Origin: a virus
DNA length: 29,933 bases
Direction: 5' to 3' (one strand)
IMG/VR virus record: IMGVR_UViG_3300046689_000511
Location: 1 to 29,933 of that record
Part shown: piece by piece, positions 2,707 through 26,935 of the stretch
How positions within the stretch are numbered: the first letter of the stretch is position 1
How the letters are laid out: each line of letters starts with the position of its first letter
The notes under the pieces: model-generated
The model's input: only the letters and a program-made list of their open reading frames with translations
The model's database searches: none
What the model was told of the DNA's origin: nothing
Program-made: the position numbers and the translations under genes

Positions 2707-5700
2707 ATGGCAGAGAATGTCCCACAGACGGTAGAAGTTCCAGTCCCACTATCACTCTTTGGTGGTCTTGTGACGGAAATGAATCCGTCTAATCTCCCGG
2801 AAGGTATCTCACCTGACAACCAGGATGTGGTGTATCTTCCGGGAGGGGTTTCTTCTCGTCCTGGTATGAGGAGATGGCTTTCAGGACTTCCACTGGGAAC
2901 TACTGTAACTTATGTAAAAACATTTGTAACTCCAGCCCAGGTTCCTCTTAACCTAATCTTAACATCAGATGGGCAATTCTGGGTACAGAATCCAACAGTA
3001 GGTCCATTCACTCCTACTCTTCTTGGCTTTGTAACTCCCGGAAGCTACTGTAGCTCAATCACAGCTTTCGGTAAAGAACTGATTACCTTCCATGACGGGA
3101 TAAATGGAACTGACATCCCATATACTTATGATGGTCAGTACTTCGACCGAGCCACCCAGTGTGGCCCGGGGATTCCCCCAACTCTCTCTAATACCATCAT
3201 ACCAGCTACAACATTAACTACAACGGCTCCAGGTACAGTTGCTCTAGTTTCCTGTACTCCAGCCAATCAAGTCTTCATTGGTCCCGATCTTTACGATACC
3301 ACCCTGATTGTCGTAACTGCCACACCACACGGCTACACGACAGGTCAGACTATAGCACTGGCCGGAACTAGTCAGGCTAGCTACAATGGCTTTGTAAACA
3401 CACTTACAGTCATTGATGCCACCACATTCTCAATAGGATTCCTGCAGCTTGATCCAGGTCCTGTTGCCGCAGGTGGAACATCGGCTCCTTATGCCTCTGC
3501 CTTCCTTAATAGAACTAACAACACCGTAACGGGCAATACATCATCCAACCATAGGCTGCAAGTTGGTTATCAGGTTCAGATCTCAAAGGTACCAGACACC
3601 GCCGTCGGTGGAGCAATCACTTCTATAGTAATTGACAATAAGCAGAATCCAGGAGTAGCTACTGTTACCACCACAACTCCTCACGGCCTTCTGCCAAAGA
3701 ACACCGTCAGCCTAGTTGGAATACCCAACACCCTTGTGGGAACAGCCATTGCCACTGCGGTTCGTGCTGGTCAAATTGTTACAATAGCTACTACTTCAGC
3801 CCACGGCCTAACGGCTGGAGCAACAGTCGCTATCGCCGGAGTTACCGACGCCACGTTTGATGGTCAATTTATAGTTCTCTCTACTCCTAGTACCTCGACC
3901 TTCACATATGCACAAGTAGATGCCGATGCCAACAGCACTTTAGGGACAGTGAACCTATCCTGGATACCTAACCAAGTAGGATTAGTAGATAGCTTATTTA
4001 CTGTGGTGTCGGCTCCTACTTTGACCACTTTTGAGATTCAGATAAGCTATGGAGATGGTACCTGGACTGGTGGCAGTGTATTCTTCTCATGGAATGGTAT
4101 TTTCTATGTCACTGGAGTACTGAGTAACACCTCATTCCAATATAGCCAGGACGGGCCGAATGCTGTAAGTGTTAATGGAGGAACGGTAACTCCACACTCA
4201 CAGATTAGTCCTGGTACCCACCAATGTGTAGTTCTATTCCAGACGAGAACTGGGTTCATAACTGCTCCTTCACCACCTATAAGCTTTGTAGCTAATGGTG
4301 GTCAGTATCTTACAGTTAATAACATCCCCCAGGGCCCATCCAATGTGGTGAGGAGAATCCTAGCATTTACAGGAGCCGATGGAGGGAATTTCTTCTACAT
4401 CCCAGTACCGGCTTTTGTGAATGGGATTGTTGTATCAACCTCCACTCAAGTAGAAGATAATACATCTACTTCAGTACTGCTGGACTTCTCTGACAACACT
4501 CTTTTCGCCTCAATTGCTATAGATATACCAGGATTCAATCTATTTCAGATGCGGGTTCTCGGGCCATGTCTAGGAGTCTCATCCTATGCCGATCGGTCGG
4601 CCTGGTGGGGGATGAAGAATATAGTTCCCAACTTCCTGAATCTTGGATTTGAAGGTGGTAACCTCTCTGGTAGCCTTATAAATCCATGCGGGTGGACCGT
4701 TGAGAATGCCGGTGGGATTTTAGATACCATTCATTCTGAGTTTGGAGTTGATTGGCTTATCACTGGAACTGGTGGCGGCGGTTCTATGGGACAGATAAGT
4801 CAGCCAGCTTATCAGGATGCCTATGGTATCCCAATAGTCAGTCCTCTCACCAAGTATTCAATGAACTTAAGGTTATTTAGAACAGCCGTTATCGGTCCAG
4901 TATCCGGAAGTGTACATTTCCAATTCTATAGCCCCGGCTCCACAACAGTTTTGGCTGAGTGTGTAGTTCAAGCCTCCGACTTAAGTATACAAGGAAAGTT
5001 CGTACAGCTAGACTTCTCAGCTCAGTTACCGGCTACTATACCAGCTGACCTTCAGTTCAGGATTTTTGGTTTTGGCTTAGGTGTTGGAACTAATCCGGTG
5101 ATAGATGAAATTGAGATCTATCCAACTCTTGTTCCAAGAGTTCCTCAGTTCATTATGTCCTATGTGAATCTCCCTGAGCAACTCGATCAAAGAAGTGGAG
5201 TTATCGGTGGTAGTGATGATGCCACCTTTATTCAGACAACCTTTGAGTATAGATCAGCTCTTCTATTCCTCACTCAGGCAAAGCTTCATGAGACCAACGA
5301 CATTGCTAATGTAGAACCATTCCAGTGGAGAGTAAGAGAAGTTAGTAACAACTGTGGGGCCTGTAGTCCACGGGCTTGCTCATCTGGAGAGAATTTCTCC
5401 GTTTGGTTAACCTCACCCTCCTCAACTCCACCAGTTGGCAGGGGCTTGTATATCTACACCGGCGGGGCGGTATACAAGATCTCTCAGGAAATTCAGCCAG
5501 ATTTCGATAACATCAACCAAGCATTCCAGCAAGCCTCATGGGTTCAGAATGATTCAGTAACTCGAAGAATCTACGTTGGAGTTCCAGTTGCATCGGCTAC
5601 TGCACCAAACATGGTCTATGTACTGGATTATCGTGAAATGGATTCAGCATCTGAGATAGCCTCTAAATCACCAATCCATATCTCCTTCAGTGGTAAGATG

Positions 5701-6258
5701 ATTTGCTCTGATCTGTCGAGGAAGTGGACTAAGTGGAACGTGGCAGGGAACTGCGGTGGTATAGTTTATGTTCCTAATCTTGGGTTGCAGTTCATTGTGG
5801 GTGGTGGGAATGGATTGATTCCTGGAACTGGCTTTGGGTTTTCAAATGCTTATTGGTTTGATCCAACTCTATTCACCGATAATGATTATGGACAAATAGT
5901 TCCCTACTACACAACCTATTTCTTCGTTAACCATGAGGCTGAACAATCCATCGGAGTAGGATTGCATCGTAAGCTTTACAAGAGATATGCTACTGACGCC
6001 ACAGGGGTTGGTCAATTCCAACTGGTTCCCTATGCCAATTCTTTGAACAACCCATGGCCAGCAGCCCCAGCTCAGCCACTTCCTATTGATTCTACATACG
6101 ATATGGGAGATGGACTCAACGTATCAACTGAAAGATGTGCATTTAAGCTTAGAAGTATCCCGTTCAATGGACAGTCCGATAATGCTTTCACTATCGGTAG
6201 ACTTGTGATCACACTCAGTCAGGAGCCCGTTTCTCCTGTCAGATTTGGAGCTGTATAA
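2707..6258 (+). CDS. Large tail nozzle/stabilization-type protein with E1-FCCH-like repeats and CBM-like module
   Basis: The protein has 1183 residues. Near residues 17-45 the sequence FGGLVTEMNPSNLPEG, followed by an NQDVVYLPGGV-type stretch and SRPGMRR, matches the start of podovirus tail-tube nozzle/stabilization proteins, which form beta-propeller plugs at the tail tip. Three repeats of the pattern T-x-HG-[YL]-x5-V/I-x-[LI]-x-G occur at about residues 200-245, 318-340 and 357-400. This is the module that databases label ubiquitin-activating E1 FCCH-like, a fold label with no ubiquitin role in phages. Around residues 640-810 a sequence beginning NLGFEGGNLSG resembles a galactose-binding/CBM jelly roll. 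The C-terminal third returns to propeller-like blades (WTKWNVAGNCGGIVYV). The likely role is the distal tail assembly, with possible host glycan contact through the CBM-like insert. The downstream ATG overlaps the stop by one base. Confidence 0.7.
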   Translation: MAENVPQTVEVPVPLSLFGGLVTEMNPSNLPEGISPDNQDVVYLPGGVSSRPGMRRWLSGLPLGTTVTYVKTFVTPAQVPLNLILTSDGQFWVQNPTVGPFTPTLLGFVTPGSYCSSITAFGKELITFHDGINGTDIPYTYDGQYFDRATQCGPGIPPTLSNTIIPATTLTTTAPGTVALVSCTPANQVFIGPDLYDTTLIVVTATPHGYTTGQTIALAGTSQASYNGFVNTLTVIDATTFSIGFLQLDPGPVAAGGTSAPYASAFLNRTNNTVTGNTSSNHRLQVGYQVQISKVPDTAVGGAITSIVIDNKQNPGVATVTTTTPHGLLPKNTVSLVGIPNTLVGTAIATAVRAGQIVTIATTSAHGLTAGATVAIAGVTDATFDGQFIVLSTPSTSTFTYAQVDADANSTLGTVNLSWIPNQVGLVDSLFTVVSAPTLTTFEIQISYGDGTWTGGSVFFSWNGIFYVTGVLSNTSFQYSQDGPNAVSVNGGTVTPHSQISPGTHQCVVLFQTRTGFITAPSPPISFVANGGQYLTVNNIPQGPSNVVRRILAFTGADGGNFFYIPVPAFVNGIVVSTSTQVEDNTSTSVLLDFSDNTLFASIAIDIPGFNLFQMRVLGPCLGVSSYADRSAWWGMKNIVPNFLNLGFEGGNLSGSLINPCGWTVENAGGILDTIHSEFGVDWLITGTGGGGSMGQISQPAYQDAYGIPIVSPLTKYSMNLRLFRTAVIGPVSGSVHFQFYSPGSTTVLAECVVQASDLSIQGKFVQLDFSAQLPATIPADLQFRIFGFGLGVGTNPVIDEIEIYPTLVPRVPQFIMSYVNLPEQLDQRSGVIGGSDDATFIQTTFEYRSALLFLTQAKLHETNDIANVEPFQWRVREVSNNCGACSPRACSSGENFSVWLTSPSSTPPVGRGLYIYTGGAVYKISQEIQPDFDNINQAFQQASWVQNDSVTRRIYVGVPVASATAPNMVYVLDYREMDSASEIASKSPIHISFSGKMICSDLSRKWTKWNVAGNCGGIVYVPNLGLQFIVGGGNGLIPGTGFGFSNAYWFDPTLFTDNDYGQIVPYYTTYFFVNHEAEQSIGVGLHRKLYKRYATDATGVGQFQLVPYANSLNNPWPAAPAQPLPIDSTYDMGDGLNVSTERCAFKLRSIPFNGQSDNAFTIGRLVITLSQEPVSPVRFGAV

Positions 6259-6788: not shown

Positions 6789-7186
6789 ATATCCGACAGT
6801 TAAGACCAGAAGACACTGATAAACTGAAAGAACTACATGGAAGACTGGGAGCTGATTACAAGTTCCCCGACTTAAGTGAGTTCTTTCCAATACCAGCTGT
6901 GGTAGATGAGTCGGACAGTCCGATTGTAGTAGTTGCTTCGCTACCAACTGTGGAACTATTCTCATTTTTTGATCCAGACTGGGAAACTCCTGGAATGAGA
7001 ATGGAAGCCTTTAAACTTATTCACGAGTTTGTGAGACGAGATCTTAAGTCTCGCGGTATTATACAAGCTGAGGCATGGATTCCTCCTCAGCTGGCTAAGA
7101 CCTTTGGAAGAAGGCTTGCTCGAATGGGTTGGAGTCGCAATAGAAAAGATTGGCCTTGTTTCTCAAGGAGAGTAAATAATGTCTAG
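6785..7186 (+). CDS. GNAT-like protein (putative N-acetyltransferase fold)
   Basis: The product has 133 residues. It opens with MNIRQLRPEDTDKLKELHGRLG, the usual first strand and helix of the GNAT acetyltransferase fold. Strands follow near PAVVDESDSPIVVVASL and FSFFDPDW, then a helix (AFKLIHEFVRRDLKSRGI), then a final IIQAEAWIPPQLAKTFGRRLARMGW, which matches the C-terminal strand-helix of GNATs where side-by-side helices contact acetyl-CoA. The canonical Q/RxxGxG/A acetyl-CoA loop is not clear, so the activity may be lost or divergent. GNAT-like genes sit inside tail-gene blocks of several podoviruses, where the substrate is unknown. It overlaps the Fn3-like gene by four bases and the next gene by eight. 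Confidence 0.55.
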   Translation: MNIRQLRPEDTDKLKELHGRLGADYKFPDLSEFFPIPAVVDESDSPIVVVASLPTVELFSFFDPDWETPGMRMEAFKLIHEFVRRDLKSRGIIQAEAWIPPQLAKTFGRRLARMGWSRNRKDWPCFSRRVNNV

Positions 7187-7745
7187 AGCTGCAGAAAACC
7201 AAGCGAAGCAGACTTACCAAACCTCAGCCGATTTTGGAAAGGGAGCCACTGCCCGATCCAATGATCTGTATGATACCTTGTCACCTACCTATGCCAATGA
7301 GGCTGCCAATCCACAAGGATTCGGTAAGGCTGACTTAGCCGATATGAACACGGCAGCTCAGCAATCTGTGGGTGGTTCACTTGGTGCTGCAGTAGGTCAG
7401 GCCAATACGATGGGAGCAGCTAACAGGAACTCTGGAAGCTTTGCCCCGGCCCTAGACGAAGCCTCCCGTGGAGCTGGCAGAACTATGAGCAATATCTCCA
7501 CTGGTATCTCTGCAGATAACGCCAAGCTCAAAGAGATGCAGAGGCAGGCAGGGATCTCCGGGCTACAAGGATTGGAAGGACAGCAGAATAGTGATGTTCT
7601 TAGCTCATTAGGGCTTGAGAATAATTCAACTAATGCCCTTACTGATGCTGGCAAGTCTGGCTGGTTCCAGAATATGACCGGGCTTATAAACGCAGTTGCT
7701 GGGGCCGGCGACTCGGCAGCAAAGTTGAAGACTGCTTACTCCTAA
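7179..7745 (+). CDS. Small internal/ejection-type virion protein
   Basis: This protein has 188 residues and is low in hydrophobic and aromatic residues. It is rich in Ala, Gly, Ser, Asn and Gln with long helix-prone stretches (MSRAAENQAKQTYQTSADF, NAKLKEMQRQAGISGLQGLEG) and a hydrophobic C-terminal patch (MTGLINAVAGAGDSAAKLKT). This composition, and the position ahead of two much larger Ala/Gln/Pro-rich proteins, fit the small member of the three-protein ejection set of podoviruses, which enters the host envelope with the DNA. AAGGAG precedes ATG 7179 at good spacing. No enzymatic motif is visible. The role is inferred from context. Confidence 0.5.
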   Translation: MSRAAENQAKQTYQTSADFGKGATARSNDLYDTLSPTYANEAANPQGFGKADLADMNTAAQQSVGGSLGAAVGQANTMGAANRNSGSFAPALDEASRGAGRTMSNISTGISADNAKLKEMQRQAGISGLQGLEGQQNSDVLSSLGLENNSTNALTDAGKSGWFQNMTGLINAVAGAGDSAAKLKTAYS

Positions 7746-18113: not shown

Positions 18114-19135
18114 TTCAACTCCTCCGTTTCTCTTGGTGGCCTTTTCTCATAATCACGGAGGATAACCAGGTCACGTTCGGTATCTCCTCTCATATCGACC
18201 TGACAAAGCTTATAGAAGTCACAGTCGAATTTACAGTTGCGATTCCAGCTTCTCAAAGGACGTGTAATCTCCTTTGCTCGACGGGCTCGTTCAATCCAAT
18301 CTTTAACGAATTGCTCACCCATCTTCAGATTGACACTATTGGGAACCCGCTCAAGTGCCATAGTAACCGGAAGACTTTGAAGTTTCTTCTCAAGCCAGTC
18401 AAGCTCATCTGGAGTGGTATACTCAATTCCGGCCTCTTTGAGAGATTTAAGATAGCCCCTCTGATCTGTATTGATCTGCCTTACAGAAAGACTGCCATCT
18501 TTGTTGATCTTTGGTCTAGGAACTGGCTCAGTTCTGATATAATCCCACAGGATTGAGTCAACAGGAAAGCCTTTCTTCCCAAGCAGGAAAGCGTAGGCAT
18601 GAACCTGTGGTTGCAGAATTCTTTCATCAGAGTCGGGTATAGCCTTCTTAAATTTGTGTTCTACAAGGATCCGACGCTTGAGTTCGTGACCTTTAATACG
18701 TCTAGCTGTGGAGACACGTCGTGAATCCTCCACAATAAGGTCAGCTTTCCAGCGGATTGGGAATCCGAGCTTAGTCATGATCTCATAGTCTTTCTCAAGA
18801 CTTACGACAGACCAGTTCTTATCATCCTCAGCCCAATGAGCTTCATAGTGTTCCATAAGCTCATACAGAGTATCCATGAAGTCCAGCCCGTAGTCAGCTT
18901 TTTCTTCTTCAAAAAGAGGATTCCACCGCTCTTCCCAGAGTGAATCATACTTGGCTCTCCAGCCTGGTCCTGGACGTGTGTAGTGGGCCTCAACAAGGAG
19001 ATGTCCAAGTTCTCCTCGAAATAGTCCGATCTTCTTTCTCTTGAGACGCAGTTTCTCCTCGTAGTTATAGTGATACTGCATCTCGCATCTGGCAAGTTTA
19101 CGGTCGGATGAAAAACTGACCCCGCTGACCTTCAT
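18110..19135 (-). CDS. Cas4/RecB-like PD-(D/E)XK nuclease with Fe-S cluster
   Basis: The product has 341 residues. Active-site residues are present in order: His45 in RGELGHLLVEA, Asp132 in RWKADLIVED, Glu159 and Lys161 in VEHKFK, and Gln177/Tyr181 in QPQVHAY. Cys17 together with Cys301, Cys305 and Cys311 near the C-terminus (CKFDCDFYKLC) gives the split four-cysteine set that holds a 4Fe-4S cluster in Cas4, AddB and related phage exonucleases. These enzymes resect DNA ends to give ssDNA for annealing, which fits the following Sak4 and SSB genes. The ATG overlaps the polymerase stop by four bases. No cas1/cas2 or repeat array is nearby, so this is a phage replication or recombination nuclease, not CRISPR adaptation machinery. 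Confidence 0.85.
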   Translation of the reverse strand: MKVSGVSFSSDRKLARCEMQYHYNYEEKLRLKRKKIGLFRGELGHLLVEAHYTRPGPGWRAKYDSLWEERWNPLFEEEKADYGLDFMDTLYELMEHYEAHWAEDDKNWSVVSLEKDYEIMTKLGFPIRWKADLIVEDSRRVSTARRIKGHELKRRILVEHKFKKAIPDSDERILQPQVHAYAFLLGKKGFPVDSILWDYIRTEPVPRPKINKDGSLSVRQINTDQRGYLKSLKEAGIEYTTPDELDWLEKKLQSLPVTMALERVPNSVNLKMGEQFVKDWIERARRAKEITRPLRSWNRNCKFDCDFYKLCQVDMRGDTERDLVILRDYEKRPPRETEELK

Positions 19136-20940
19136 GCTATTTCCTCACCTTCCCAACAATCTTCATAAGCAGTTACATCCATCAAAATCGGAACTCTGAA
19201 TTGGAACCCGAAATGTCTATCAACTGCGCCTTGAATATTATCCAACGTGTATTTGATACCAGCTCTCAGTGTGGGAACGTAATCACGTTTAACTTCAAAG
19301 ATCTGAGAGTCATGTGCTGATCCTACCATAAAAGCTTTAGATGGGTCGATTTTGAAATCCCATTTGAGATGTCTTGAGGTGATGAGGTTAGAAATAAATA
19401 GATTAAGATCAGACCCAGCAGACTGAATAGGAGAGTTAATACCTTGTCTAACAGCTTCCCTTCTTCTCCATTCCTCAAGAGCAGAGCCATACTGAGCACC
19501 AGGAAGGTGCCTACGGCGCCCAAAAACAGAATCGATCCAACCGTTTTGTGCGACGAAATGCTCAACTCGAGAGTGCCATAGGAGTAATCCAGAATACTTA
19601 TCAAAAAAAGCTTCACGGTATGTCTCCCCCTCATCCTGCCTTAAGTTAAGTCCAAACTTTTCTTTAGCATAAGCTACGAATTTCTTGGCCCACATCCCAT
19701 ACACGAACCCAAAGTTTACAGCTTTAGCTTTCTTTCTAGTTTCTTTATCAACATTCCCAGTTGTTAGGGTCTGTGCTGTAGCAAGGTGAATATCCAAACC
19801 TTGATTAAAGATTCGGATCATGGTCGGTTCATTAGCTGCATGAGCTACAAGCCTTAATTCAACTTGTGAGAGGTCAGCAGCCACAATAACCGAATCAGGA
19901 TCACGAGCTGTAATAAGATTACGAATAAAGTGATCTCTTGGACACTGATGGAGAGTTGCTCCAAGCTTTTTTTCGCCCCGTTTGTTCTTAACCATAGTTG
20001 AGTTAAGACGGCCAGTATCAGTGTCAGTAAAGCCATAGTTTGCATGAAGCACCGGTCCTTTCGTAGTCCACGGTATCAGATAAGTAGATTTCCACTTCTT
20101 CCACTTACGCCATTCCAGTGTTGGCTCAACTACTGGGTGTTTTCCAATGAGTCTGATTAGAGCAGCTTCTGCTGTACTGTTGTTACCCTTCCCCTTGGTC
20201 TTGACTGGACATTTGAGTCCTAGATCTTCGTAGTAAAGCTTGTTCATCTGCTTTGGTGAGGCAGGGTTGACATGCCTTCCAGCAATCTCATCTATCTTGC
20301 CATTAAATTCTTTAAGCTTCTCATCGCATTGATCAATTCTCTCAATGGCCAGGTCCATGTTGATATGGAATCCATTGCAGATAACATCGGAGAATGTTTC
20401 AATAGCCGGCATTAGGATGTATTTGGCCAGTCTAGCAACCTTAGGATTACTCTTCAGGAATGGGAGGTGTCTTTCCTTATACAACCTAAAGTCGTATAAT
20501 ACATCTCGAGAGTTATATCTCTTCATCCTATCCCAATCAACTACATGAGCAAAGTCATCTACATCACTCCAAGCATCAACTCCAAGATGAGCCATAGCCT
20601 CATACTTGAGTCCAGTTTCATCATTCTCGTCGATGAGAAATGCACCTACTTTAGTATCAAAGTAGAGTCGAGGCTTTACACCAAAGATTGTGGTGATATA
20701 GGTAAGCTCAAAAGTACCTCTGCGGGAGATGATCTTGTACTTACGGAAGAAGTCCTGGTACTGTGCCAGATGGGAATGACGAACTTTAATCCAGTAGATA
20801 TCCTCAGTAGTCTGTGCTACAGAGAAACACCAGATCCTAGCATTAGACCTAAATGGGTCCAGCCCATTGGTCTCGATGTCCACTTCCACAGGAAGGGATT
20901 CGTCAAAGTGCGTAGGAAGCATCGAGTAAACTCTTGCCAC
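19132..20940 (-). CDS. Family-A DNA polymerase with 3'-5' exonuclease
   Basis: The product has 602 residues, the usual size of phage PolA-type replicases lacking the 5' nuclease. The exonuclease part shows DIETNGL (Asp21, Glu23) and a late YNSRDVLYD motif. The polymerase part has motif A ADLSQVELR with Asp356, motif B RKKAKAVNFGFVYG around Asn409, and motif C at 543-545, which reads HDS instead of the common HDE. The catalytic Asp544 is retained. The GTG start follows the deaminase TAA directly and has GAGGG upstream. It is the main replicative polymerase candidate of this phage, between nucleotide-supply and end-processing genes. The Glu-to-Ser change in motif C is unusual and may tune metal binding or fidelity, though activity is still expected. 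Confidence 0.93.
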   Translation of the reverse strand: MARVYSMLPTHFDESLPVEVDIETNGLDPFRSNARIWCFSVAQTTEDIYWIKVRHSHLAQYQDFFRKYKIISRRGTFELTYITTIFGVKPRLYFDTKVGAFLIDENDETGLKYEAMAHLGVDAWSDVDDFAHVVDWDRMKRYNSRDVLYDFRLYKERHLPFLKSNPKVARLAKYILMPAIETFSDVICNGFHINMDLAIERIDQCDEKLKEFNGKIDEIAGRHVNPASPKQMNKLYYEDLGLKCPVKTKGKGNNSTAEAALIRLIGKHPVVEPTLEWRKWKKWKSTYLIPWTTKGPVLHANYGFTDTDTGRLNSTMVKNKRGEKKLGATLHQCPRDHFIRNLITARDPDSVIVAADLSQVELRLVAHAANEPTMIRIFNQGLDIHLATAQTLTTGNVDKETRKKAKAVNFGFVYGMWAKKFVAYAKEKFGLNLRQDEGETYREAFFDKYSGLLLWHSRVEHFVAQNGWIDSVFGRRRHLPGAQYGSALEEWRRREAVRQGINSPIQSAGSDLNLFISNLITSRHLKWDFKIDPSKAFMVGSAHDSQIFEVKRDYVPTLRAGIKYTLDNIQGAVDRHFGFQFRVPILMDVTAYEDCWEGEEIA

Positions 20941-21297
20941 TTAACCCTCTTCTGCAATTATTTCAGTGATTCCTGCAGCTTTAGCCAGCTTCATACACCG
21001 ATGGCAGACTTCTCGACCGGTGACATAGAGCGTAGCCCCTTCAACCGAGATACCATGCTTGGCAGCAAAGCAGATAGCGTTGGCTTCTGCATGTACAGTC
21101 CTGATACAGTGACCATCCACCATCTCGCAGCCTACATCCTCACAGTGAGGGTCTCCCGGAGAAGACCCGTTGTAACCTGTGGATAGGATACGCCCTCCCT
21201 TCTCGATAACACATCCTACTTTGGCTCTTAAGCAGGTACCACGCTTTCCGATAGCTTTTGAGACCTCAAGCATTATTTCTCTACGAGAGATTCTCAT
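20941..21297 (-). CDS. dCMP deaminase
   Basis: This 118-residue cytidine/deoxycytidylate deaminase fold protein has all the zinc-site residues: HAEANAI (His69, Glu71) and CHRCMK (Cys98, Cys101), plus the extra Cys/His segment HCEDVGCEMVDGHC seen in ComEB/T4 Cd-type dCMP deaminases. It converts dCMP to dUMP for thymidylate or modified-dUMP synthesis. The usual Pro before the first Cys is replaced by Val. Its ATG overlaps the stop of ThyA-like protein 1 by four bases, so the two enzymes are made together. In a phage with dCMP-specific ThyA relatives it may instead act on a modified dCMP; that is speculation. Allosteric dCTP control, known in the family, cannot be judged here. Confidence 0.92.
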   Translation of the reverse strand: MRISRREIMLEVSKAIGKRGTCLRAKVGCVIEKGGRILSTGYNGSSPGDPHCEDVGCEMVDGHCIRTVHAEANAICFAAKHGISVEGATLYVTGREVCHRCMKLAKAAGITEIIAEEG

Positions 21298-22070
21298 GGG
21301 ATCCTTTCTGGAAACAGTGTATAGTAGTCATTTCTGAAGAGGTGCAAACTCGTGATGTGCATGGTAAAGCTGCCAGGTGTTAAGAGACCAAAAGCTGGAC
21401 GATCTAAAAGTTCATCCATTACCCAGTGTTGAAGCTTTACCGTCATATAGATATCATTCCTGAAATGACGAACAAAATCACAACTTCTGATATAGTACAC
21501 GATGTGGAGTTTGTCATCTCTGATGATGAAGTGATATCCAAGAGTGCAAGGCTTGCGCTGGCTGATTGGAGCTCCCAAATCTTCTGGAAACCACACAGGA
21601 AGGTAGGCTTGCCGAGTTAACGGGTCCATAGCAAGCAGTGAGACGAGGTCATCTAAATCGCCATACGGAAACCTAATGCCCTGATGGACGTCTAAAGAAT
21701 AATTAGCATACTTCGGCCAATACCTCTCGGGATAGGAATGACTGAAAATACCCTCTTTATTCTTAAACCTGTCATTTCCTTTGGGTGAATGAGGCCACCA
21801 ACTCTCGCTAGGAGGTGGGTTAAGTGGCCTTCTTCCAACTCGTTCAGAAAAGTGATCATCAGCCCAAGGCAGGTCAGGCTTGATAACATCTGCTAGTTGT
21901 GGGAGGGTAAGAATTGATGGTTCAACCCTTAAGCTGTAATTCAAAAGCTCATGAGTAGCCATCTCCGGGTGTTTTGTAGTATCTACACCTTGCCAATACC
22001 CGGATTTGACCAATGGGGCATCCCTCAAGGCAGAGGTAGCTTCAAAGATTGCTTGTGAGAAACTAGTCAA
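21294..22070 (-). CDS. ThyA-superfamily pyrimidine methylase 1 (dCMP hydroxymethylase-like)
   Basis: The 258-residue product starts at a TTG with AAAGG six bases upstream. The C-terminal 130 residues align to thymidylate synthase: DPLTRQAYLPVW (the SRR phosphate-binding strand, Arg153), KPCTLGYHF with the catalytic Cys175, IVYYIRSCD with Arg195 and Asp198, then FRNDIYM, then TSLHLFRND (His243, matching HLY). Counting from the conserved Arg, the residue equivalent to E. coli Asn177 is Asp206. Asp here is the feature of dCMP hydroxymethylases such as T4 gp42, while Asn selects dUMP. The N-terminal 130 residues are divergent. It sits between a perfect hairpin and dCMP deaminase. I favour a dCMP hydroxymethylase or methylase; a divergent dTMP synthase is the alternative. 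Confidence 0.72.
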   Translation of the reverse strand: MTSFSQAIFEATSALRDAPLVKSGYWQGVDTTKHPEMATHELLNYSLRVEPSILTLPQLADVIKPDLPWADDHFSERVGRRPLNPPPSESWWPHSPKGNDRFKNKEGIFSHSYPERYWPKYANYSLDVHQGIRFPYGDLDDLVSLLAMDPLTRQAYLPVWFPEDLGAPISQRKPCTLGYHFIIRDDKLHIVYYIRSCDFVRHFRNDIYMTVKLQHWVMDELLDRPAFGLLTPGSFTMHITSLHLFRNDYYTLFPERIP

Positions 22071-22085
22071 AACTTACCTTTCTAT

Positions 22086-22117
22086 TATAGGGGCTACAGA
22101 GGTATGTAGCCCCTATA
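22086..22117. terminator. Perfect 13-bp hairpin between coil gene and ThyA-like gene 1
   Basis: TATAGGGGCTACA (22086-22098) pairs perfectly with TGTAGCCCCTATA (22105-22117), with a six-base loop. It lies seven bases after the stop of the Ala-rich gene and sixteen bases before the start of ThyA-like gene 1. There is no U-run on either strand, so it may attenuate, stabilise mRNA ends or mark a processing site instead of simply terminating. Confidence 0.55.
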
Positions 22118-22123
22118 GGTAGA

Positions 22124-22378
22124 TTATGCTGCCGGCGGTGGAGGAGTTGGAAGTGAGGCTGTAGCCGTTGCAATGTTGGTGTTTGCCGTCTGAATCAAAG
22201 CAACCTGTGCTTCGATGGCATCTGCCGCTGCCTGAACTGCTGGATCGCTGCTAGCAGAGAGTTCTTTTACTGCTTCGGCAATGGCCGCTGTTGCTGCCGT
22301 TGTGTTGTCGGTCTCGGTCTTAACTGCATCCGACAAGTCGCTTACTGCCTTGGTCAAAGAATCGATGGCGCTTGACAT
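22124..22378 (-). CDS. Ala-rich helical small protein, possibly longer at the N-terminus
   Basis: The ATG at 22378 gives 84 residues of low-complexity, Ala/Thr/Ser-rich amphipathic helix (SLTKAVSDLSDAVK, AAIAEAVKELSASSD) with a PTPPPPAA tail; it has no aromatic residues and no Cys. GGAG sits 11 bases ahead. Oddly, the same frame is open for another 35 codons upstream, right to the stop of ThyA-like gene 2. A perfect AAGGAGG lies there, seven bases before an ATC codon (22471), with no ATG, GTG or TTG in between. The extra sequence (IDWVGLLFPTHRLTKKVTEL) looks coding. The protein may therefore start at a non-canonical codon, or arise by readthrough of the upstream TAA. The function is unknown; a coiled-coil oligomer is plausible. 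Confidence 0.6.
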   Translation of the reverse strand: MSSAIDSLTKAVSDLSDAVKTETDNTTAATAAIAEAVKELSASSDPAVQAAADAIEAQVALIQTANTNIATATASLPTPPPPAA

Positions 22379-22483
22379 CTTTTTTACTTCTCCTATTAGC
22401 TCGGTTACTTTCTTGGTTAATCTGTGAGTTGGAAAGAGTAATCCAACCCAATCTATTTTTCCACCGTTGATATTCCTACCTCC

Positions 22484-23299
22484 TTAATCTAGTCCATTTT
22501 CTTCAAGGAAGTCTTCTACATCCTCTGGGCTGATCATTAAGTCAGTCCTCACGGGAAGTTTCTCAGTGAACTTACCTGGCTCAATAGACAGGTTCTTAAC
22601 AAGAATGCTGTTAGGAATGTGTCCAAATTCATCAAGGGCCATCATCCTCTTACGTCCCCTCTTGAGAGGCCCAAACTTGATGTCCTCATAGTCCACATCT
22701 GTGAGGCGTTTCATGGTGCGCTGAAGCCTGTGTCCATCTGTGGGCATATCGAACATCTTCAAGTAAAAGATCTGGCTGATAGCTGAGATATAGCAATTCG
22801 AGGCAACCCAGGATCCACGGACTGCTTCAAAGCCCATACGCCGAGCTACCACATTCATGAGCGAAAGATCGAGAAATCCAACCTTGTCAAGATGGCAAGC
22901 GCGGCTAACCAGAATAACTTCTGGCTGAGGACAAATTCGGATCTGAAGAGATGCCAAACAGCCACCATAATTATGGCCCGTATTGAGATTGACAGAATAA
23001 CTTGCCACAAAGGGCCGAGAGGGGTACCGTTGTAGCTTAGCGATAGATTCATCAATCCATCCCGGAAAGTCTTCACGTAAATACCTCCGTAGAAACCGTG
23101 TCCATCGTGATTTGGTATAGCTTGCCATACCGAGAGTCATGTTCTCATCGTGGAGTAGGTCGTCAATCTCCACAGAGAGCATACCGTTGTAGCCGATGCA
23201 TACTCCCCACTTGAGGGGTTTAAGTTCTTTAGAGTATGCTAGTTCTTCGGTTACTCCTCGATAAGTAGCTAGAAGGTTTGGGAACTTTCTCTCAATCAA
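22484..23299 (-). CDS. ThyA-superfamily protein 2, divergent paralogue
   Basis: I chose TTG 23299 because GGAGA lies six bases upstream; a TTG at 23317 is the longer option without a ribosome site. The product has 271 residues. I recognise the thymidylate synthase fold from a run of matched landmarks: an IDESIAKLQRYPSRP stretch (the SRR strand, Arg95), GGCLASLQIRI with Cys114 at the catalytic position and Gln119 five residues on, VSRACHLDKVGFLDL with Arg133 and, eleven residues later, Asp144 at the place of E. coli Asn177, then RGSWVASNCYI. The His/Tyr pair that binds the nucleotide sugar in ThyA is not evident. About 80 extra residues follow at the C-terminus (GPLKRGRKRMM, ISPEDVEDFLEENG). 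It overlaps the MazG-like gene. It may be a second dCMP-modifying enzyme or a non-catalytic partner. Confidence 0.62.
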   Translation of the reverse strand: MIERKFPNLLATYRGVTEELAYSKELKPLKWGVCIGYNGMLSVEIDDLLHDENMTLGMASYTKSRWTRFLRRYLREDFPGWIDESIAKLQRYPSRPFVASYSVNLNTGHNYGGCLASLQIRICPQPEVILVSRACHLDKVGFLDLSLMNVVARRMGFEAVRGSWVASNCYISAISQIFYLKMFDMPTDGHRLQRTMKRLTDVDYEDIKFGPLKRGRKRMMALDEFGHIPNSILVKNLSIEPGKFTEKLPVRTDLMISPEDVEDFLEENGLD

Positions 23300-23714
23300 C
23301 TGGATTCTCCATTTCAAGGGTGGTTTGAATAGCCGGACGGAACAGTATGTCCCAAATCTGTGGACGTCTGAAATCTGGGCCTTTAGGATTCACTTCTCCA
23401 TATTTCTGACCTTCGTAAGCTTTTGAAGCTGTTTTGGTCATGTTGGAGTTATGGACTTCCTGGAATACTCGATCTATAGGTATTCCGTAAGAGATGGCAG
23501 TCCCAACCAATACATAGATTAGATCTGCAATCCCGTCGGCTATCTCCACTAGATCATCCTGTTCTAGTCCGCTGCTCAATTCGGACCATTCTTCCTCAAT
23601 CAGTTTTGCTCGTAAATCTTTCACATTGTCAGGAACATCTACGGTGGGATATTCTTTCACCAGATGTCCATACTTGTTGTGGAATTCCAGCACCATCTGT
23701 TCGGGAGTTTTCAT
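23292..23714 (-). CDS. MazG-like nucleotide pyrophosphohydrolase
   Basis: I chose ATG 23714, which overlaps the kinase stop as ATGA and has GAGG upstream; GTG 23720 is the longer option. The 140-residue product has the all-alpha NTP pyrophosphatase signature: RAKLIEEEWSEL (Glu41 and Glu45) and DLVEIADGIADLIYV (Glu57, Asp60 and Asp64), followed by a conserved helix VFQEVHNSNMTK. This arrangement matches phage MazG/phosphoribosyl-ATP-pyrophosphatase-like proteins. Such enzymes hydrolyse (d)NTPs to monophosphates, and in phages with modified DNA they can remove the unmodified dNTP or supply the dNMP to be modified. Placement directly between a dNMP kinase and a ThyA-like gene supports a role in pool remodelling; a role in ppGpp control, known for other phage MazG proteins, is an alternative. 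Confidence 0.82.
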   Translation of the reverse strand: MKTPEQMVLEFHNKYGHLVKEYPTVDVPDNVKDLRAKLIEEEWSELSSGLEQDDLVEIADGIADLIYVLVGTAISYGIPIDRVFQEVHNSNMTKTASKAYEGQKYGEVNPKGPDFRRPQIWDILFRPAIQTTLEMENPVD

Positions 23715-24211
23715 TTCCACCTCAGCAGGAATAGTAGTAGGTTATCGAAAGCCTCAGGCTCATTCCATTTATAGATATAGGTCCTAGCCGAGGTGAGGGC
23801 CTGGTCATTTACCAGGTTGTCGTACATGTTTCGGATTTGGGACATCTTCTCCTTAACTACTGGGGATTCGTCTAGTTTATAGATCAGAGTATCAGGAAGA
23901 CAAAAGATCACCACACTGCCTTTGAGCATGAGTTCTATCAGCTTATGCATGTACTCAGCTTTTGAGAAGGCTGATTTACCACGAAGAACTTTACCGTAGG
24001 CCATCTCTGAGAATAGAAATCTATCTACGGCTACCTTGTTATCTTCGCCATAGAGTCGAATGTATCGGTCAGTCTCATACTTCATTCGATCTACATCACC
24101 CTTGGCAGTGATTCTTGGTGATGGCTTAACTGAAGATACTGTCCCAGTAGACAGAAGCATATTACAGAGCGTTGATTTACCGGAACCATCAGGCCCCTCG
24201 ATGATCAGCAC
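23711..24211 (-). CDS. Thymidylate kinase-like dNMP kinase
   Basis: The 166-residue product starts at GTG 24211 with GGAGGAG just upstream. The P-loop is GPDGSGKST (residues 6-14), followed by a DR-type motif VAVDRFLFSE (Asp63, Arg64) where thymidylate kinases contact the monophosphate, and a lid-like region with Lys/Arg (KEKMSQIRNMYDNL). The protein is shorter than cellular Tmk (about 210 residues), as for several phage dNMP kinases that accept modified nucleotides. The gene lies between the SNF2 helicase and the MazG-like gene, overlapping both. It probably phosphorylates dTMP or a modified dNMP made by the ThyA-like proteins. Substrate range cannot be deduced from sequence. Confidence 0.8.
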   Translation of the reverse strand: MLIIEGPDGSGKSTLCNMLLSTGTVSSVKPSPRITAKGDVDRMKYETDRYIRLYGEDNKVAVDRFLFSEMAYGKVLRGKSAFSKAEYMHKLIELMLKGSVVIFCLPDTLIYKLDESPVVKEKMSQIRNMYDNLVNDQALTSARTYIYKWNEPEAFDNLLLFLLRWK

Positions 24212-26008: not shown

Positions 26009-26935
26009 TTACATGTCAATTGAACTACGAAATCCGAGAAGGATCGGAGTTCTTGGTTTATCCTTTACTCCGATTGGTTGGAACTTATACTTGATCGTCT
26101 GTCCAATATATCCCGACGGTTCGGAGCAAAAGTTAATCCACATATTTCTCCGCTGCTCCTTAGTGATGCCAAGCATAGTACCAACATCAAACTCAACGCC
26201 AGTAGTAAGATCTCGAACGTAAAAACCACCGAGATGACCATTAGGTACCTTACCTTCCTTGTGAGAACTGCGCTTACTTCGACCAACTTCATTTATGGTA
26301 GCCTCATTTGTGTTGGTTTCCTGCTCGTAACATCCAAGAATCTCGGCCTCTGAATCTTCAAATCTCTTAATCTTGATAAGATAGCCTTCATTGAAAGTAG
26401 ACCTGCCTTGCTTGTATGGCCCATCCGGGTCACGGATCATAATTCCTTCCCAACCTTTGGTAAGCATCTCCGACTCAAAGTCCAGTAGCTCTTTCAAGGA
26501 CTCCACATACTGATGAGGCACTACAGTAATTGAGGGATTGCCGATGAGCTTTATCCGTTCTTTTACACCGGACAGACGGAACATGAATCCGGCATTGCTC
26601 TCAGTCCTATCAAACACATGGTAGTGAACATCGGGTGAACCGCCATGAGACATCACAGCGCTCTGGGTGTCATGGAAGACTGTGGGAGAAGTTGGGTCAC
26701 CGACGGTTATTTCTCCGTCGAGTCCGTTGAGGTGTCCGAGTCCAAGGACTTCCTGCACATGATGATTAGGAATTAACTTGTTCTTCCTGCTCAGCGCAGT
26801 CGCGTCATATATATGACAGCGTATGCCGTCGATCTTGGGGGAAGCAAGAACTGGGAATCGGATCTGTTTCATCTGCTGTTCTTGTACTGTCTGGTCAGGA
26901 TCGAACTTAGCAGATAGCATAACTTTTTGTATCAT
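26009..26935 (-). CDS. ATP-dependent DNA ligase
   Basis: The product has 308 residues, close to small phage ligases of T7 type. The adenylation domain has motif I SPKIDG with nucleophile Lys34, motif III around GLDGEITVG (Asp73, Glu75), motif IV WEGIMIRDPDG (Glu163) and motif V YLIKIK (Lys188, Lys190). An OB-like C-terminal domain with GGFYVRDLTTGVEFDVG and IGQTIKYKFQPIG follows. It seals nicks in replication and recombination intermediates. It is the first gene of the long leftward early operon. Its ATG coincides with the predicted transcription start, so the message is probably leaderless and has no Shine-Dalgarno. Family assignment is firm. Confidence 0.93.
   Translation of the reverse strand: MIQKVMLSAKFDPDQTVQEQQMKQIRFPVLASPKIDGIRCHIYDATALSRKNKLIPNHHVQEVLGLGHLNGLDGEITVGDPTSPTVFHDTQSAVMSHGGSPDVHYHVFDRTESNAGFMFRLSGVKERIKLIGNPSITVVPHQYVESLKELLDFESEMLTKGWEGIMIRDPDGPYKQGRSTFNEGYLIKIKRFEDSEAEILGCYEQETNTNEATINEVGRSKRSSHKEGKVPNGHLGGFYVRDLTTGVEFDVGTMLGITKEQRRNMWINFCSEPSGYIGQTIKYKFQPIGVKDKPRTPILLGFRSSIDM

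Follow-up and report, generated by a model that had tools for sequence, protein, structure and literature searches.

Paired ThyA-fold genes in a phage nucleotide gene cluster: a probable route to modified cytosine

The virus record IMGVR_UViG_3300046689_000511 of IMG/VR (29,933 bases; its whole length is called the window below) carries a cluster of five genes, all on the minus strand and most of them overlapping, two of which encode proteins with the fold of thymidylate synthase (ThyA). We saw that these two genes, named P1 and P2 here, form a pair that recurs as a fixed cassette across many phages; the best reading is probable synthesis of a modified cytosine by the phage, with P2 as a putative active partner of P1, probably a second enzyme or a hetero-subunit. 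New here are the family to which P2 belongs, the obligate link of this family with P1, and an arginine signature in P1. A preliminary description of this DNA had proposed both the ThyA fold and the modified base, and had called the presence of two such enzymes unusual; the fold was borne out by structure prediction and superposition, while the pair turned out to be recurrent. The two genes are:

21294..22070, minus strand: P1, ThyA-fold enzyme; TTG start; PF00303, phrog_160 (2.2e-30)
22484..23317, minus strand: P2, second ThyA-fold protein; TTG start; PHROG 13667 (unknown function; 4.4e-10)

P1 is a recognisable though remote relative of thymidylate synthase, with a PF00303 score of 27.9 bits against the Pfam cut-off of 24.3. 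Its AlphaFold2 model (predicted local distance difference test, pLDDT, 95.5; for both proteins the input alignments were built from the collected loci) has the ThyA fold: superposition by VIA-align on thymidylate synthase 5x67 gave Z 19.9 and a root mean square deviation (rmsd) of 2.7 over 222 residues. A match of equal quality (Z 19.5) was obtained to the cytidine monophosphate (CMP) 5-hydroxymethylase MilA (PDB 5jnh, 5b6d) and to 9iqc, one of two entries (9iqu and 9iqc) deposited as dCMP (deoxycytidine monophosphate) hydroxylase and riboflavin-dependent monooxygenase of phage HY126 (AfhB). The spacing C175-20-R195-11-D206 matches both E. coli ThyA (C146-R166-N177) and T4 gp42 (C148-R168-D179). 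Among 162 non-redundant relatives, with about 160 scored per column, Cys175 was kept in 159/160, Arg195 in 160/160 and Asp206 in 159/160; Arg153, Gln154, Arg172 and His243 were fixed or almost so. With the fold, the catalytic Cys and the phosphate Arg, P1 belongs to the ThyA superfamily.

The other motif residues of P1 speak for a deoxycytidine substrate and set the protein apart from the hydroxymethylases. Ser196, next to Arg195, and Arg153, of the Arg153-Gln154 motif, make up the dCMP-type pair at the sugar-selecting positions, where MilA has Ala and Lys; Ser and Arg at these two sites give MilA-type enzymes a preference for dCMP over CMP (PMC5175136). The folate Asp three residues after the Arg (Asp198) is retained in 159/160 sequences. 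Three residues before the catalytic Cys, P1 has Arg172, again in 159/160 sequences, where thymidylate synthase has Leu and hydroxymethylases have Asp or Glu, a residue considered their signature (PMC6400193). The label 'T4 gp42-like hydroxymethylase' was considered for P1 and could not be established, the residue at this position being Arg and not Asp/Glu.

P2 had no family match in Pfam or NCBIfam, and PHROG 13667 was its sole profile match; a search of PDB sequences with the P2 profile gave no credible match (a single chance hit, E 0.68). The AlphaFold2 model of P2 (pLDDT 88.5) nevertheless has the ThyA fold: its best match was AfhB 9iqu (VIA-align Z 14.8, rmsd 3.8, 183 residues), followed by MilA (Z up to 14.3) and then by thymidylate synthases (Z about 11). 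Among predicted viral structures it matched uncharacterised phage proteins and the P2 relative in phage PMBT14; one of the matches carries the annotation thymidylate synthase/dCMP hydroxymethylase domain. In a set of 135 non-redundant relatives, most of them at 15-25% identity, four residues were invariant: Tyr79 (131/131), Cys120 (130/130), Arg139 (132/132) and Asp150 (133/133). They were also the sole invariant columns of a 47-sequence alignment, with Gly118 nearly invariant. The fold together with the invariant Cys and Arg places P2 in the ThyA superfamily as well. The spacing, C120-19-R139-11-D150, has a Cys-Arg gap one residue shorter than in ThyA; the Arg-to-Asp distance of 11 is that of P1.

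P2 shares the Asp, but not the other marks, of a T4-type hydroxymethylase. The position three residues after the Arg is Glu, Tyr, Ser, His or Leu and not the folate Asp (ThyA Asp169), and the position three residues before the Cys is chiefly uncharged (mostly Met, Trp, Gln, Phe, Leu or Tyr). Thus neither protein is fully of this type, P1 by its Arg172 and P2 by both positions. Sequence-profile support for a relation of P2 to P1 is weak (hhalign probability 8.7%), and profile-profile comparisons between P2 and either P1 or AfhB were too weak for alignment beyond the Cys-Arg-Asp core; the correspondences of P2 Tyr79 to ThyA Tyr94 and of Arg101 to Arg126 therefore rely on spacing and on the succession of secondary-structure elements. 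P2 relatives show no conserved residue at the Arg126 position. We regard P2 as a new family; work on AfhB and 5-hydroxycytosine (bioRxiv 2025.06.16.659550, cited in PMC13390438) may treat P1 or P2. In two records the gene at the P2 position already bears the name 'pyrimidine hmase synthase' (L030, 2909-3679; L117, 4208-5041); the remote likeness was therefore noticed by earlier annotators.

As the nearest solved relative of P2 is a flavin-dependent enzyme, this fold can serve chemistry other than that of folate. 5-hydroxy-dCMP synthases of the thymidylate synthase superfamily are described from Mosigvirus phages (PMC13390438), and AfhB is of that type. One could suppose that the pair makes 5-hydroxy-dCMP with flavin, in the manner of AfhB, and not a one-carbon product. 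P1 also matches 9iqc well, AfhB has Asp at the 177 position, both P2 and AfhB lack the folate Asp, and the Tyr79-Arg101 spacing in the window's P2 (22, counted by eye on the sequences) is that of AfhB. Still, similarity of fold shows no function, and the folate Asp is kept in nearly all P1 sequences. Moreover, known 5-hydroxycytosine phages glycosylate this base, and no glycosyltransferase was seen among the window proteins scanned or among the annotated genes of PMBT14, Serbin and Muddy. We consider a flavin route improbable. AfhB differs from P2 in several respects: identity is about 12%, it has Glu three residues before the Cys and no annotated partner of P2 or P1 type lies adjacent.

The residue 11 positions after the Arg appears to mark cytosine specificity in this superfamily. 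It is Asp in P1, P2, T4 gp42 and AfhB (by sequence) and MilA (by alignment), and Asn in E. coli ThyA; in SPO1 gp29, a deoxyuridine monophosphate (dUMP) hydroxymethylase, the Asn is read from the sequence at position 12 after the Arg, owing to a one-residue insertion. Among the references compared, Asp at this position separates the characterised dCMP and CMP enzymes from the dUMP enzymes. The bare Cys-Arg-Asp motif is weak evidence, as it occurs in 1.8% of shuffled copies of P1 and 3.9% of those of P2; it is beyond chance because it is conserved across relatives and both models have the ThyA fold. The Asn typical of thymidylate synthase, which would have spoken against the preliminary description, was not found. 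Both families have a fixed Asp here instead of Asn, which makes the modified-uracil branch that this description had offered as an alternative less likely.

The same residue bears on another explanation: P1 could be an odd thymidylate synthase that supplies deoxythymidine monophosphate (dTMP) and is fed by the adjoining deaminase, with P2 as a decayed copy. P1 relatives are indeed annotated as thymidylate synthase in databases. Yet Asp replaces Asn in all but one of the P1 sequences, and the catalytic residues of P2 never vary, so P2 is not decayed. Several carriers also have a flavin-dependent thymidylate synthase, ThyX, of their own (Polewnik, MW202455 and 13/50 P2-bearing records above the family cut-off), and in those phages the pair is therefore not needed for dTMP. 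We find this explanation very unlikely.

Viral contigs were scanned three times with P2 subfamilies as starting points, which gave 93 non-redundant P2 loci. P1 followed P2 downstream on the same strand in 91 of them, and in the other two the contig ends 254 and 0 bases past P2. A dCMP deaminase was a neighbour in 86 loci, a family A DNA polymerase (PolA) in 85, a kinase in 82 and MazG in 78; as these counts came from single-sequence searches, they are lower bounds. Phages of unrelated hosts repeatedly show the order kinase-MazG-P2-P1-deaminase-PolA; the hosts of isolated phages with this order are Streptomyces, Gordonia, Curtobacterium, Pseudomonas, Serratia, Yersinia, Mycobacterium and Brevundimonas, and in some of these phages either the deaminase or MazG has been replaced or lacks annotation. 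Cultured carriers include Mycobacterium phage Muddy, Gordonia phage GTE2, Streptomyces phage Zuko, Pseudomonas phage PMBT14 and Serratia phage Serbin. In a search of bacterial and archaeal genomes (84,980 species) relatives of P1 appeared on only seven contigs, all from metagenome-assembled genomes; these genes are therefore essentially confined to phages and rarely found in prophages.

Some loci depart from the common arrangement. In the wider locus set a few copies or pieces of P2 lie downstream of P1 instead; in L080 an extra P2-like gene (6811-7524) lies there besides the usual P2. L088 (3447-5768) has in tandem P2, a P1-like copy without the catalytic Cys and Asp (PTILG, NNLF) and an intact P1. 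Between P2 and P1 in the window is an Ala/Thr-rich open frame of 84 residues (22124-22378, minus strand), which had no PHROG match; in two close relatives (L001 and L002) P2 and P1 are adjacent. In phage Muddy (L122) two products annotated as hypothetical could be placed: gp45 (34731-35273) is of the dCMP deaminase family (PF00383, 2.5e-18), and gp47 (36046-36939), at the P2 position, has the Cys, Arg and Asp of P2. In MW202777 (L116) an unannotated gap of 789 bases directly upstream of P1 (4122-4911) has the size and place of P2.

In the dimers formed by ThyA enzymes, Arg126' is contributed by the partner subunit. The pairing could accordingly reflect an obligate hetero-oligomer, with Arg153 of P1 supplied to the site of P2. 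Apart from the two cut-off contigs, none of the 93 loci had P2 without P1, the P2 residue at the Arg126 position is variable while Arg153 of P1 is invariant, the additional copy in the L088 tandem is without its Cys and Asp, and P1 is often coupled to P2 in translation, the closest potential start of P1 sharing 1-4 bases with the stop of P2 in 45/123 cases. Against this, the residues of P1 are not degraded when P2 is present. In a mirror-tree comparison the distance matrices of P1 and P2 had a correlation of 0.65 (partial 0.18), not above other operon pairs, while P2 tracked PolA best (0.89, partial 0.58). We hold such a hetero-oligomer to be rather unlikely.

P1 may also act by itself, making 5-hydroxymethyl-dCMP like T4 gp42, with P2 then acting on the product, for instance by replacing or extending the C5 substituent; this is possible, though we would not expect it. 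Sixteen P1-only records argue for it, since P1 can evidently stand alone: the P2 profile matched none of these 16 whole records (0/16), while it matched all 8/8 known P2 records used as positive control. The residues of P1's own site are complete in paired and unpaired forms, with no difference between the two in catalytic residues. P2 always retains its Tyr, Cys, Arg and Asp and, as it has no Asp in the place of the folate Asp, its chemistry is probably another one. On the other side stand Arg172 of P1, where hydroxymethylases have an acidic residue, and the different gene context of the P1-only forms, which may do something else. In a virus record of 150 kb (L060), a P1 relative that has no P2 beside it (4980-5756) lies amid genes for a glycosyltransferase-like protein, an FkbM methyltransferase and a DegT aminotransferase; its neighbours are not nucleotide genes, and it may serve synthesis of nucleotide sugars or glycans.

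The five genes of the preliminary description are all at the positions it gave, on the minus strand, and its assignments of deaminase, MazG and kinase are supported by Pfam and PHROGs. Besides P1 and P2, we list the following genes:

19132..20940, minus strand: family A DNA polymerase (PolA), PF00476 (1.2e-62), immediately downstream of the deaminase
20941..21297, minus strand: dCMP deaminase, PF00383 (4.5e-16), PF14437 (4.1e-11), phrog_174 (6.2e-36); shares 4 bases with the end of P1
23292..23720, minus strand: MazG-like/all-alpha nucleotide pyrophosphohydrolase, PF01503 (6.2e-15), phrog_671 (1.7e-25); overlaps P2
23711..24211, minus strand: P-loop deoxynucleoside monophosphate kinase-like protein, phrog_761 (thymidylate kinase; 7.7e-11), PF02223 (9.4e-06, slightly under the family cut-off)
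26009..26935, minus strand: ATP-dependent DNA ligase near the cassette, PF14743 (2.8e-08), PF01068 (3.2e-08), phrog_114 (1.8e-59)

The ligase is present in just 3/93 P2 loci and so is no fixed member of the cassette; a search of the window for tRNA genes found none. As gene families, the set for cytosine replacement at the precursor level is complete (dCTP pyrophosphatase, dCMP-modifying enzyme, deoxynucleoside monophosphate (dNMP) kinase and dCMP deaminase), in agreement with what had been expected of the neighbours. In phage T4 the dCTPase gp56, the dNMP kinase gp1 and a dCMP deaminase accompany the dCMP hydroxymethylase gp42, and the supporting genes of the window match these activities. 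P1 resembles gp42 in its fold, in the Asp at position 177 and in its Cys, Arg, Ser and folate Asp; it differs at the position three residues before the Cys, Asp in gp42 and Arg in P1. The cassette differs from T4 in its obligate second ThyA-fold protein, compact operon and family A polymerase. SPO1 gp29 shares with P1 the Thr-Arg-Gln motif and, towards the end of the core, a Ser-Leu-His motif; however, it has Asn in the 177 region and Asp three residues before the Cys.

Our preferred explanation, which we hold with moderate confidence, is that the operon follows the logic of T4: a C5-modified deoxycytidine nucleotide is made before replication and supplied to phage DNA. The analysis shows the genes, their order and obligate pairing, the folds and the conserved residues; the steps below are drawn mainly from what is known of the families. 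The MazG-like protein, presumably a dCTP (possibly also dUTP) pyrophosphatase, would convert host dCTP to dCMP. With its cytosine-selecting Asp, P1 would attack C6 of dCMP through Cys175 and add some substituent at C5. P2, with a Tyr, Cys, Arg and Asp of its own, might work with P1, either catalysing the step that follows or serving as a subunit. The kinase, presumed to act on modified dCMP, would phosphorylate the product, host enzymes would finish the triphosphate and the phage PolA, presumed to take the modified deoxynucleoside triphosphate as substrate, would incorporate it. The deaminase would convert excess dCMP to dUMP, a source of dTTP. One could go further and speculate that P2 and P1 form a two-component synthase, with composite sites or coupled steps, that gives dCMP a C5 substituent other than hydroxymethyl, methyl or hydroxyl; we put this forward as a doubtful extension.

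Phage contigs that came through an enzymatic selection for modified cytosine offer an independent comparison. Passages of the MetaGPA study report enrichment of Asp177 thymidylate synthase domains and of PF01503, PF00383, PF14437, PF14743 and PF01068 (PMC8670742), and the window contains every domain of that list. The contigs described there are linked to carbamoyltransferase, and those passages do not mention a second ThyA homologue. A search for the carbamoyltransferase family PF16861 found none in 50 P2-bearing records, though its sensitivity is little tested, as the control matched just 1/14 genomes. Several points weigh against a modified cytosine made by this route. The agreement with MetaGPA is one of Pfam sets and not of sequence; Arg172 of P1 occupies the place of the water-activating Asp/Glu of hydroxymethylases; the deaminase could also convert the product to a uracil derivative; and the papers found give no nucleoside data for pair-bearing phages.

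Several of the DNA modifications by which phages overcome restriction and CRISPR begin with a relative of thymidylate synthase. Many P2 genes are now called hypothetical and P1 genes thymidylate synthase, annotation that may need correction. If P2 and P1 do form a two-component synthase, a widespread group of phages would carry a new DNA base modification. The P2 family, unannotated, with four invariant residues of catalytic type and always accompanied by P1, points to undescribed chemistry, and it does so in phages that are in culture.

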